This document shows positions 7,018 to 14,623 of a DNA stretch of 32,196 nt, piece after piece; the first letter of the stretch is position 1, and the number at the start of each line of letters is the position of its first letter. Source of the DNA: a bacterium. Its GTDB lineage: Bacteria; Patescibacteriota; Minisyncoccia; Phycocordibacterales; UBA10002. The DNA is taken from NCBI GenBank assembly GCA_030649775.1, contig JAUSFR010000065.1, positions 1 through 32,196 on the forward strand, written 5' to 3'. The notes under the pieces are model-generated. The model was not told where the DNA came from, ran no database searches, and saw only the letters and a list, made by a program, of their open reading frames with translations. Made by a program: the position numbers and the translations under genes.

Positions 7018-8733
7018 ATGCTAAGTTTTATTACGCGATTTTGGTACAAACTTCGGCATCCTCGCCACGAAGTGCGTGAGATAGACCCCGATGAGATATT
7101 TTTGGACTCCAGCAATCTGCCGGAGTTTAATCGGCATCAATTTGAAGGGCGTCTTGAGCGTCCTATTTCCCGAAAAACCATTTTGAGCGTCTCGGTCGTG
7201 TTTATACTCGTACTTCTTGTCGTGCTCGGAAAGAGTTTTACGCTTCAGGTTCGGGACGGCGCTCTCTATACGAAGCAAAGCACGCAGAATCGTTTACGTC
7301 ATACGCTGATGTTCGGCTCGCGTGGAGTCTTTTACGACCGTACGGGTGCGTTTCTCGCGTGGAACGTGATTGATAAGGATGAGCCTGCTTTTTCCAAACG
7401 GAAGTACGTGGATATTCCCGGACTCTCGTCTCTCCTCGGCTATCTGAAGTACCCGTCAAAAGATAAAGCGGGGTTTTACTATAAAGTGGATTTTGAACCG
7501 CAGGATGGTGTGGAAAAGTTCTACAACGAATTCGTCGCTCCGCAACACGGTATACGAATAGTGGAAACGGATGTGCACGGAGTCATCCAGTCGGAGAGTG
7601 TCACCAAACCCCCGAAGGACGGAACGAGCGTCACGCTTACGGTTGACGCGCGTCTTCAAGAGAAGCTGTACACGACGATGGAGGGGCTCGCCAAAGAAAA
7701 AGGATTTCAAGGTGGAGCGGCGGTTATTATGGATGTGGAAAACGGTGAGCTACTCTCATTCGTGAATTTTCCCGAATACGACTCGCAGGTACTTACCGAT
7801 GGCACGGACACATCTGCCATAAAAAAAGCCTTCGCCGATTCACGGAAGCCATTCTTGAACCGTGTCACCAAAGGCCTCTATACACCGGGCTCCGTCGTGA
7901 AGCCGTTTATGGCACTTGCCGCGCTGGAAGAGGGTATTATTACGCCCGAAAAGGAAATTGTCAGCACCGGTTCCATTTCCATACCGAATCCGTTCGACCC
8001 AAGTAAGCCAACGGTGTTCAAAGATTGGAAGGCGCACGGAGCGGTAGATATGCGCCGTGCACTCGCCGTCTCTTCCGACGTCTATTTTTACGAAATTGGA
8101 GGTGGCTTTGAGGGGCAGAAGGGGTTGGGTATCGCGAACATTGAAAAATACAGCCGAATGTTCGGATTCGGCACGCCACCTCCCGGCGATATTATCGGTG
8201 AGGCCGGAGTTATTCCGACTCCTGAGTGGAAACGCGAACAATTCAAGGGAGAGGCATGGAACATCGGAAATACGTACCACACCGCTATCGGACAATATGG
8301 ATTTCAGGTGACACCACTTCAGATGGTTCGAGCTGTTTCGGCTATCGCGAACGGGGGGAAACTTCTGGAACCTCGCCTTACGCGAGAGGAAGATGTTACT
8401 CCGTTGTACAGCGTCATTCCCATACAAACCTCTTCGTTTACGGTGGTGCGGGAAGGTATGCACGAAGCGGTCACAGCGGGCGGAACGGCCAGCGCACTCC
8501 TGTTGCCAGGAGTGAGTATCGCGGGTAAGACGGGAACCGCGGAACTCGGAACGCTGAAAAAATTGGTCAACTCGTGGGTTGTCGGTTTTTTCCCATACGA
8601 AAAGCCACGCTACGCATTCGCGATTGTTATGGAGAAAGGTTCTCACGACAACACCGTCGGCGCCGCGTTCGTCGGGCGGGAGTTTATGCAGTGGCTTCAG
8701 GCAAACGTGCCGGAATATCTCAAGGCAGAATAA
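7018..8733 (+). CDS. mrdA: Penicillin-binding protein 2 (class B transpeptidase)
   Basis: GSRGVFYDRTGAFLAWN; SSDVYFYEIGGGF; IAGKTGTAELG; elongasome context. Confidence 0.93.
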   Translation: MLSFITRFWYKLRHPRHEVREIDPDEIFLDSSNLPEFNRHQFEGRLERPISRKTILSVSVVFILVLLVVLGKSFTLQVRDGALYTKQSTQNRLRHTLMFGSRGVFYDRTGAFLAWNVIDKDEPAFSKRKYVDIPGLSSLLGYLKYPSKDKAGFYYKVDFEPQDGVEKFYNEFVAPQHGIRIVETDVHGVIQSESVTKPPKDGTSVTLTVDARLQEKLYTTMEGLAKEKGFQGGAAVIMDVENGELLSFVNFPEYDSQVLTDGTDTSAIKKAFADSRKPFLNRVTKGLYTPGSVVKPFMALAALEEGIITPEKEIVSTGSISIPNPFDPSKPTVFKDWKAHGAVDMRRALAVSSDVYFYEIGGGFEGQKGLGIANIEKYSRMFGFGTPPPGDIIGEAGVIPTPEWKREQFKGEAWNIGNTYHTAIGQYGFQVTPLQMVRAVSAIANGGKLLEPRLTREEDVTPLYSVIPIQTSSFTVVREGMHEAVTAGGTASALLLPGVSIAGKTGTAELGTLKKLVNSWVVGFFPYEKPRYAFAIVMEKGSHDNTVGAAFVGREFMQWLQANVPEYLKAE

Positions 8734-8889
8734 CCAATAATCAATCACCAATCACCAAACAAATCCGAAAATTCCTAACCTTTCCCTTTTTTTGATTATT
8801 GTTTCTTGGTTATTGGTGATTGTTTGCAATTGACTTTTTGCGCAAAAATCAATAGAATCACCTTGTTACTATAGCTTAATTGCAAACCA

Positions 8890-9357
8890 ATGCCCGATAC
8901 CCCCGAATATCTCACCCAGGAAAAATACAACGAACTTGTGAAGGAGCTTCTGCATCTCAAGACCGTTAAGCGCAAGGAAGTTGCCGAAAGTCTTGAGTAC
9001 GCGAAATCGCTCGGAGATTTGTCGGAAAACGCCGAATATCAGGAAGCGCGCGAACTTCAAGCGAACATTGAGGACCGCATTTCAAAACTTGAGACGATGC
9101 TTCAAACCACCGTCATTGTGAAGATGCATCACAGTGAGGTTATCGGTATTGGTTCCACCGTGACCATCCAAAAGGAAGGTGCATCTACCAAAGCGGTCTA
9201 CAAGATTGTCGGTTCCGAAGAAGCTGACCTTGCAAAGGGCAAGCTCTCCATCAACTCACCGCTCGGGCACGCGATGATTGGCAAGAAGGAGGGGGATACT
9301 TTTAGTGCAAAGACTCCCGGAGGATTGGTGAAGTATGAGGTGGTACATATTGAATAG
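8890..9357 (+). CDS. greA: Transcription elongation factor GreA
   Basis: YLTQEKYNELVKELLHLKTVKRKEVAESLEYAKSLGDLSENAEYQEARE; C-terminal FKBP-like region. Confidence 0.96.
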   Translation: MPDTPEYLTQEKYNELVKELLHLKTVKRKEVAESLEYAKSLGDLSENAEYQEARELQANIEDRISKLETMLQTTVIVKMHHSEVIGIGSTVTIQKEGASTKAVYKIVGSEEADLAKGKLSINSPLGHAMIGKKEGDTFSAKTPGGLVKYEVVHIE

Positions 9358-9470
9358 CACAACACGAATTACACGAATCCAGAGAACGAATGATACGAAT
9401 AAAATGAGATCTACTATTCGGAACATTCGTGTCATTCGAATCTTCTATTTGTAAATTCGCATTGAGTTAC

Positions 9471-12695: not shown

Positions 12696-12864
12696 AGTTT
12701 TCTCAGTCTACCCTAACAAGGTAGACCTACTTTGTCTAACTTGGTCAGGGTGGCTTTTTTTGTGTACATCACTATCCACTCACTATGCACTTCTTATCCA
12801 CAGGTGGTGTGTAGAGTGGTGGTATAAAGTGTTATACAATATGCAGGAAGTGGGAAAAAGTGGT

Positions 12865-12999
12865 ATGACCAAAAGACTTCATTTAAAAACAGTAGAATAT
12901 AGGATTTTTTATAAGGGCAAACACTTTGTCTTTCCGATTTCTGTTTGTGTGGGGGTTACTCCGCGAGAAAGAGTTCTTGTACGGCTAAAAAGACGCTAG
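12865..12999 (+). CDS. Small hypothetical protein upstream of mraZ (MTKRLHLKTVEYRIFYKGKHFVFPISVCVGVTPRERVLVRLKRR)
   Basis: In-frame 44-aa ORF within the longer 12679-12999 ORF; non-repetitive composition, promoter-like region upstream. Confidence 0.35.
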   Translation: MTKRLHLKTVEYRIFYKGKHFVFPISVCVGVTPRERVLVRLKRR

Positions 13000-13008
13000 G
13001 TTACCCCG

Positions 13009-13104
13009 GTGAAATCCCGCCAAAGGCGGGGTCGGCCAAAGCGCCGACATATTTCACAGGGTGACGATTTTTAAAACTCTCAGAATCGTTAAAAAAATCA
13101 GTCA
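13009..13104 (+). promoter_or_regulatory. Structured leader: three-way junction plus start-proximal hairpin (mraZ copy)
   Basis: GTGAAAT(13009-13015)/ATTTCAC(13051-13057); CCCGCC-aaa-GGCGGG(13016-13030); GTCGGC/GCCGAC(13031-13048); TGACGATTTTT/AAAAATC-a-GTCA ending at 13104. Confidence 0.75.
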
Positions 13105-13205
13105 TGCTCATCGGCGAATACACACACACCATAGATGACCCCAGTAGTAGAAGCTCGAAGACTCGCTTCACTACGGGGCAAGCAAAAACAACACCATGCT
13201 TATAG
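13104..13205 (+). CDS. 33-aa leader ORF whose first 12 residues duplicate the MraZ N-terminus; its stop overlaps the mraZ start region
   Basis: MLIGEYTHTIDDPSSRSSKTRFTTGQAKTTPCL*; TAG at 13203-13205, mraZ ATG at 13196. Confidence 0.4.
   Translation: MLIGEYTHTIDDPSSRSSKTRFTTGQAKTTPCL
13139..13178. repeat. Hairpin/palindromic insert between the two mraZ start copies
   Basis: CCCC-a-GTAG-ta-GAAGC...GCTTC-a-CTAC-GGGG. Confidence 0.75.
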
Positions 13206-13630
13206 GAGAATACACACATACGATAGATGATAAAAATCGGTTATCCCTACCAGCGAAGTTTCGTGCCGAAATGGGAAAGAAGGTGGTGCTTACAAGAGGA
13301 CTGGACAAATGTGTGGCGATTTTTACCGAGAAGGAGTGGAAAAAGATTGCAGAGAAACTCTCCGAGTCAAGTATGCTCCAAGCCGACAGCCGAAGCTTCA
13401 ATCGTTTTATGTTCGGTGGAGCGGTGGAGACGGAGGTGGATACGATTGGACGCGTGCTTGTCCCCGACTTTTTGAAGACGTGGGGAGACTTGGGCGCCAA
13501 GGTGGCCGTAATTGGGGTTCAGAGCCGTGTTGAAATCTGGAACGACAAAGCGTGGGCGGCCAATAAGGACACGATAGAGAAGCAGGCCGATACGCTCGCG
13601 GAAAAATTGGGGAGTATAGGAGTCTTGTAA
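13196..13630 (+). CDS. mraZ: Transcriptional regulator MraZ
   Basis: MLIGEYTHTIDDKNRLSLPAKFRAEMGKKVVLTRGLDKCVAIF; second DGRVLVP-like half (DTIGRVLVPDFLK). Confidence 0.95.
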   Translation: MLIGEYTHTIDDKNRLSLPAKFRAEMGKKVVLTRGLDKCVAIFTEKEWKKIAEKLSESSMLQADSRSFNRFMFGGAVETEVDTIGRVLVPDFLKTWGDLGAKVAVIGVQSRVEIWNDKAWAANKDTIEKQADTLAEKLGSIGVL

Positions 13631-13633
13631 CAC

Positions 13634-13731
13634 AATGCGAATGACACAAATCACAGAGCGAATGACACGAATAGAATATAAGACTTACATTTTATTCGTG
13701 TCATTCGAATCGGGATTCGTAAATTCGCATT
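13634..13731. repeat. Self-complementary intergenic repeat (ATTCGT-word family) ending at the rsmH start
   Basis: AATGCGAAT.../...ATTCGCATT ends; CGAATGACACGAATA / TATTCGTGTCATTCG perfect 15-bp inner arms. Confidence 0.88.
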
Positions 13732-14623
13732 GAGTATGCATATTCCCGTTCTTTTACATGAAGTAGTAAATGGTCTCCAGGCGAAACCCGGAGAGACCGT
13801 CCTTGACGCCACGGTGGGTGGTGGAGGACACAGTGAAGCACTCTGTCAGGCGATGGGTGGAAACGCTCGGTTCGTCTGTTTGGATGCCGACGAGGACGCG
13901 ATAGAGCGAAGTCGTAAGAGGTTAGAAGTGTGCGGTTGTGAATTTCTGTTCTACCACACGAACTATCGGCATCTTGATGTGGCGCTCGCGAGTCTTGGCA
14001 TCACGGGTGTGAATCGCATTCTTTTTGACCTCGGACTTTCCAGTTTTCAGCTCGATGAGAGCGGACGAGGGTTCTCATTTATGCGCGACGAACCGCTTCA
14101 GATGACTTTCGTAAAGTTCCCGAAAGAGGGAAGCATTACGGCACAGACGATTGTGAACGAGTGGAGCAAGGAAACCATCGCGACACTACTTGAAAGTTAC
14201 GGAGAGGAGAAGCAGGCGTGGCGCATCGCGACAAAGATTGTGGAGGAGCGCGAGAAGGCACCCATCGTTACCACCTTACAGCTTGCGGGTATCGTGGAGT
14301 CGGTCGTCAAACGGAAAGGGAAAATTCACCCCGCGACCAAAACTTTCCAAGCACTGCGCATTGCGGTCAACGATGAGTTTCAGGGACTTCGAGACGGACT
14401 CGTGAAGGCGTGGGAAAAGCTTTTGCCCGAAGGTCGTATCGCCGTCATTTCGTTCCACAGTATGGAAGACCGCGTGGTGAAAGATTATTTTCGGGAACTC
14501 GGGACGACGGGAGCGGGAAAGGTACTCACCAAGAAACCGATAGTGCCGACTGAATCGGAGATAACGGCAAATCCTCGGTCCCGAAGCGCGAAACTCCGGA
14601 TTATTGAGAGAATAGGAGAATAA
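13730..14623 (+). CDS. rsmH: 16S rRNA (cytosine(1402)-N(4))-methyltransferase
   Basis: HIPVLLHEVVNGLQAKPGETVLDATVGGGGHSEAL; FDLGLSSFQLDESGRGFSF; VISFHSMEDRVVK. Confidence 0.96.
   Translation: MSMHIPVLLHEVVNGLQAKPGETVLDATVGGGGHSEALCQAMGGNARFVCLDADEDAIERSRKRLEVCGCEFLFYHTNYRHLDVALASLGITGVNRILFDLGLSSFQLDESGRGFSFMRDEPLQMTFVKFPKEGSITAQTIVNEWSKETIATLLESYGEEKQAWRIATKIVEEREKAPIVTTLQLAGIVESVVKRKGKIHPATKTFQALRIAVNDEFQGLRDGLVKAWEKLLPEGRIAVISFHSMEDRVVKDYFRELGTTGAGKVLTKKPIVPTESEITANPRSRSAKLRIIERIGE

Follow-up and report, generated by a model that had tools for sequence, protein, structure and literature searches.

Rickettsia palindromic elements are short palindromes located inside coding genes, some of them kept in frame, in a phylum different from that of the bacteria considered here. 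To our knowledge, no report describes such an element bringing a replaced gene end. Helitrons have a target preference of A^T, and integrative islands that enter gene ends restore the end they enter. Insertion of such islands and of prophages at gene or tRNA ends, for example at the 5' end of dusA, has been described (PMC4482086). GTAG REPs, which occur with RAYT transposases, are short hairpins with a GTAG motif, some of them in genes; this tag lies unpaired at one of the two ends (PMC3733652). Mobile ORF elements of fungal mitochondria replace the C-termini of genes, including atp6 in Allomyces and atp6, atp9, cox2 and nad3 in Glomus (PMC3630166).

A second start of the gene mraZ, interrupted by a short hairpin (H), was identified in a stretch of 32,196 nucleotides of Patescibacteriota DNA (contig JAUSFR010000065.1 of assembly GCA_030649775.1), referred to here as the window. 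Similar arrangements at dozens of gene and tRNA ends in related ultra-small bacteria suggest a mobile insertion of a type not yet described, one that provides a new copy of the end it breaks into.

The mraZ locus

Twelve codons of mraZ are present twice, as 36-nt copies at 13104-13139 and 13196-13231, which agrees with the initial annotation; the repeat search paired 13103-13138 with 13195-13230 (spacing 92, 86% identity). All six differences between the copies are synonymous third-position changes, as had also been claimed, and the chance of six third positions in six if the differences were random over 36 nucleotides is C(12,6)/C(36,6), about 5e-4 (direct calculation). The features of the locus are as follows.

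12848 to 12865, forward strand: repeats resembling MraZ boxes (AAGTGGGAAAAAGTGGTA), part of the native promoter of mraZ (sequence)
12865 to 12999, forward strand: small ORF of about 44 amino acids between promoter and mraZ, beginning MTKRLHLKTVEYRIFYKGKHFVFPISV; related small ORFs lie at the same place before mraZ in several genus members (by eye: G001, G007 and others)
13000 to 13103, forward strand: structured leader ending AAAAAATCAGTC right before the upstream ATG (fold -43.3 kcal/mol, z -6.4)
13104 to 13138, forward strand: orphan mraZ 5' end on the left side of the hairpin (sequence, repeat search)
13104 to 13205, forward strand: ORF of 33 codons that begins at the orphaned start, crosses the hairpin and ends in the live start (ORF translation)
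13139 to 13182, forward strand: hairpin element H, 44 nt (CCCCAGTAGTAGAAGCTCGAAGACTCGCTTCACTACGGGG plus CAAG; covariance model match E 1e-15; fold -18.7 kcal/mol, z -3.8; covariation; repeats in the same genome and in the order)
13183 to 13189, forward strand: seven bases (CAAAAAC) with which the orphan continues past the hairpin (DDKN across the junction; resumption typical of CAAG/CAGG-tailed hairpins)
13190 to 13195, forward strand: short 5' UTR of the live mraZ (AACACC), like the TACACC-ATG of mraZ in G001
13196 to 13630, forward strand: intact mraZ (PF02381, E 4.9e-30, 103.8 bits)

The 33-codon ORF (MLIGEYTHTIDDPSSRSSKTRFTTGQAKTTPCL) stops at TAG 13203-13205 and overlaps the start of mraZ. 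The structured leader ends at 13103 and adjoins the upstream ATG, and a similar element adjoins the ATG at 2740 (proS); both ORF and leader had been described in this way before. The base C13139 is at once the 36th base of the upstream copy and the first base of the 44-nt hairpin. When the hairpin is taken out, the upstream copy reads GAT-GAC-AAA-AAC (DDKN), as MraZ continues, for 7 nt, after which the similarity to mraZ ends. Since removal restores the D-D-K-N reading of MraZ, H is a clean insertion into a second mraZ start (GATGA^CAAAAAC).

The downstream neighbour of mraZ is rsmH/mraW (PF01795). The far-left context is native, since 12793-12863 shares 86% identity with the sequence upstream of mraZ in a sister species (G001). 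The orphaned start matches that of G001 at 35/36 nt and the live start at 29/36, and the live gene matches at 78-80%. From these comparisons the live mraZ looks vertical rather than foreign. Tandem repeats of 7 bp lie before mraZ in several relatives.

The leader (GGTGRYGATTTT...AAAATCARYC) at 2590-2742 and 13000-13106 adjoins the starts of proS and the orphaned mraZ, respectively, and before proS the motif itself occupies 2697-2742. It points to the ATG at 2740 as the likely proS start; a longer ORF from 2695 runs through the leader. Similar leaders adjoin atpB, glmS and other genes in related genomes, and also the intact mraZ of G044 and G052, so that an mraZ starting directly after such a leader, as envisaged in the initial annotation, does exist in other families. 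In several related leaders the central hairpin is H itself. Dispersed intergenic repeats made of short units like ATTCGTGTCATTCG or TTCGTAATTCG are present at 782-831, 8727-8822, 9352-9470 and 13628-13735, and repeats of this type have many copies in this genome, G001 and G007.

The hairpin family

A DNA search of the same genome with 12900-13700 found several other contigs that match at about 13135-13186 only. Related hairpins share the frame CCCC-A-GTAG-N-A-(variable stem and loop)-N'-CTAC-GGGG-CRAG. Among aligned copies, the 5' arm carries two conserved unpaired A's and the stem shows compensatory changes. H was detected by covariance model search in 49 of 299 genomes of the order and by a stricter pattern search in 46 of 399 genomes, with no hit of the reversed-pattern control among the matches listed; the survey covers these searches and selected sequence stretches. 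Few further loci came from the family searches centred on G282 and G094. A search of the window against Rfam 15 returned no family matching H above the curated threshold, a tRNA being the sole match, and no description of H hairpins in Parcubacteria or Patescibacteria was found in a literature search.

Several other settings of H have been observed. Hairpins of the family lie seemingly in frame within coding genes at L053, L054 and L040 (yraN-like, DUF192-like and glycosyltransferase-like), without a second gene end. At L041 (1500-1680), a tRNA gene is located between two inverted H hairpins whose CARG-like sides both face the tRNA. One pattern hairpin lies between two genes of a phage contig (L266, 8971-9005), without gene-end duplication; a phage origin of H was considered and set aside, this single viral-contig match being uninformative.

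Duplicated gene ends across the order

A truncated copy of a gene end touches the CCCC side of the hairpin, with the intact gene on the other side, at 42 of 137 distinct hairpin sites (left copy ending at the hairpin, anchored score of at least 12), the sites from related genomes being not fully independent. The 137 sites were gathered through hairpin searches and not through duplications, save a few from searches for mraZ or other genes. Among the controls, mismatched (shuffled) pairs gave 0.9% and pseudo-junctions in the same loci 2/267, and the mirror geometry was found at only 5 sites. About two thirds of the hairpin sites are without detectable duplication. The duplicated ends are those of mraZ, uvrA, uvrB, lepA, fusA, gatB, ychF, clpP, clpC, V-PPase, htpX and tRNAs, all gene names except mraZ being taken from reading of translations and not from profile searches. 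The genome studied here contains two further arrangements like that of mraZ, at the C-terminus of V-PPase and the N-terminus of uvrA. Elsewhere the arrangement is present in fusA (G010), in mraZ with a related hairpin (G058), at the 5' and 3' ends of tRNAs, in lepA of about 10 genomes and at both ends of ychF. In gatB of G060 (L072), two nested, successive rounds are visible.

The insertion site is CA^YA-like, with A at position -1 in 31/38 and C or T at position 0 in 36/38; that of mraZ is GATGA^C. Most CGAG-tailed hairpins have a motif like AAGTGGTA after them, and in all 12 duplicated cases of this class the live gene takes up the match 72-78 nt away. After CAGG/CAAG-tailed hairpins, the class to which the mraZ hairpin belongs, the interrupted gene resumes briefly (a mean of 4.85 of 7 nt matching, versus 1.58 in the CGAG class) and the spacing is variable (28-96 nt). 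Full-length duplicates of 72-73 nt, identical over one continuous stretch, lie beside H at L114 and L130. L217 and L173 are recent cases of the CGAG class; their copies agree fully in the coding part, and their upstream regions are unrelated.

Divergence of the copies

Among the codons changed between copies at loci read as coding, 141 of 177 are synonymous and 36 non-synonymous, a count that includes a few RNA-gene loci misread as coding; the neutral expectation for single-base changes without selection is about 22% synonymous. Because the codon changes are overwhelmingly synonymous, the orphaned ends must have evolved as working ends until recently. By this codon evidence both copies were working until recently, and mraZ is typical and no exception.

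The orphaned start of uvrA reads MSKEHEHHHEAG-KIIVKGARTH, a genus-typical N-terminus (MSKE...GAG-KIIVKGARTH in sister genomes), and the live start reads MKNSE-KIIVKGARTH, which is different and shorter. In this genome, collinearity with G001 holds for the uvrA orphan together with its upstream region and, taken by itself, for the gene body; over its first 750 nt, the live gene is also most similar to G001. At the V-PPase C-terminus, the relic with its outer flank and the gene body are likewise both collinear with G001. The extra DNA at uvrA and V-PPase comprises only about 100 nt (hairpin, spacer and replacement end).

Origin of the duplicated ends

Insertion of a compact mobile hairpin at a gene end, carrying or repaired with a diverged copy of that end, is the preferred explanation, with a probability of roughly 0.58. 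An insertion of about 80-130 nt built around H would enter a CA^YA-like site near the 5' end of mraZ, and the old mraZ end would stay upstream as an orphan. A complete replacement end from a diverged allele would be supplied beyond H, leaving mraZ intact. The same element family would have done likewise at numerous conserved gene and tRNA ends within this Patescibacteria order, and a trans-acting nuclease or transposase would perform the insertion step. We infer the mobility of H, the derivation of the replacement end from another lineage and this trans-acting step, whereas the family, its polarity, site preference and geometry and the synonymous divergence are observed.

For none of the replacement ends did a donor allele turn up, and no enzyme has been linked to H. 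The vertical look of the live mraZ and the many hairpin sites without a duplication also speak against the insertion model. Among HUH-type proteins the profile searched was that of the Y1 transposase (PF01797), which was counted in 39 of the 49 genomes with H and in 145 of the 250 remaining ones, a hand count that may only reflect genome size, and none was shown beside H; the co-occurrence is weak, which makes this enzyme a doubtful candidate for the mover.

The strongest rival, although clearly less probable than hairpin insertion, is a junction of alleles, in which DNA of a sister lineage is joined illegitimately at or near a hairpin that is fragile or recombinogenic and not self-moving. A left allele (upstream region and gene end) would thus meet a right allele (5' UTR and whole gene). 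The initial annotation had placed such a junction at 13140-13195. That proposal comes close, the copies differing as functional alleles do, but the junction consists of a repeated, structured, mobile-looking hairpin, which had gone unrecognised, as had the recurrence of the pattern at many gene ends. That the orphaned mraZ start is nearer to G001 than the live start would fit import of the left part instead, and the unrelated 5' UTRs of the recent cases also favour an allele junction, although the pattern at L217 and L173 is predicted by neither simple target duplication nor simple import. The strict polarity, the CA^YA site and the fixed spacing of 72-78 nt argue against it, and at uvrA and V-PPase the collinearity of both body and outer flank with the sister species restricts any import to the extra segment. 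Because neither donor nor enzyme was found, the orphan is closer to G001 and the upstream regions of L217 and L173 are unrelated, the allele junction is kept as a serious rival.

A more speculative and rather unlikely extension of hairpin insertion is that H units are homing micro-elements, in which a gene-specific tail (about 30-75 nt of the gene end) directs the unit to the same gene in other lineages and restores that gene. If this were true, a gene-less element of about 100 nt could enter tRNAs and essential genes while its host survives.

A long target-site duplication made as H inserted, after which the two copies diverged in the ordinary way, is improbable. The full-length duplicates beside H at L114 and L130 are consistent with it, but an unselected orphan should gain mostly non-synonymous changes, which make up just 36 of 177 codons, and the upstream parts at L217 and L173 are unrelated though the coding parts are identical. 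Simple duplication with later decay is disfavoured on both counts.

Still less probable is a selected leader peptide or attenuator of mraZ, formed by the orphaned N-terminus and the hairpin and coupled to mraZ through the overlapping stop (TAG 13203-13205). The ORF overlap and the position of the hairpin within the likely 5' UTR are in its favour, but the arrangement was not seen at the other mraZ loci read in the genus, and the same anatomy is found beyond the stop codon at C-termini, as well as at either end of tRNAs. The selected decoy N-terminus and the translational coupling proposed in the initial annotation fail, as a general cause, for the same C-terminal and tRNA cases. Ribosome bypass over the hairpin was also rejected, as the live V-PPase gene stops before the hairpin.

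An assembly chimera of two strains at a repeat is the least probable account, for although the draft genome is fragmented (88 contigs), the recurrence of the same geometry in many independent genomes from several studies and deep within long contigs (L102, 323 kb; L198, 256 kb; L208, 133 kb) makes it unlikely from the sequence data.

Significance

If hairpin insertion is right, few known insertions that can enter essential genes without harm would be as small as H units, since the insertion leaves a working gene end, and this in streamlined bacteria. It would also explain the puzzling orphan start codons and tRNA fragments that lie beside intact genes in Patescibacteria and can lead the annotation of start sites astray. 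With the orphaned ends come allele pairs that make the history of gene exchange directly testable in these organisms.

Comparison with known systems

As in the IS200/IS605 or Helitron-like single-strand transposons, the hairpin of H has a polarity and unpaired bases, and its target preference is very short (A^Y); no transposase was linked to H and no second element end was found. In every aligned copy, the GTAG of H forms part of the stem, where CTAC is its partner. It is flanked by unpaired A's, and H lacks the unpaired GTAG tag that GTAG REPs have at the palindrome end. The in-gene hairpins at L053 and L054 resemble Rickettsia palindromic elements in lying within genes in frame. Like the gene-end islands (PMC4482086), H enters conserved genes and tRNAs at an end, but the H insertions are without integrase or cargo and have many different target genes.

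The mobile ORFs of fungal mitochondrial DNA are the closest precedent. In both systems a relic of the native gene end persists on the far side of the insertion, and the gene is completed by a diverged end that the insertion brings (PMC3630166), and relic native ends together with diverged replacement ends are found at the H insertions. The fungal elements carry homing-endonuclease genes and act at C-termini (PMC3630166), whereas the H insertions, at about 80-130 nt, are too small for a gene. Compared with the fungal type, they are about 100 nt long, without an ORF and with the hairpin first, and they occupy N-termini, C-termini and tRNA ends.
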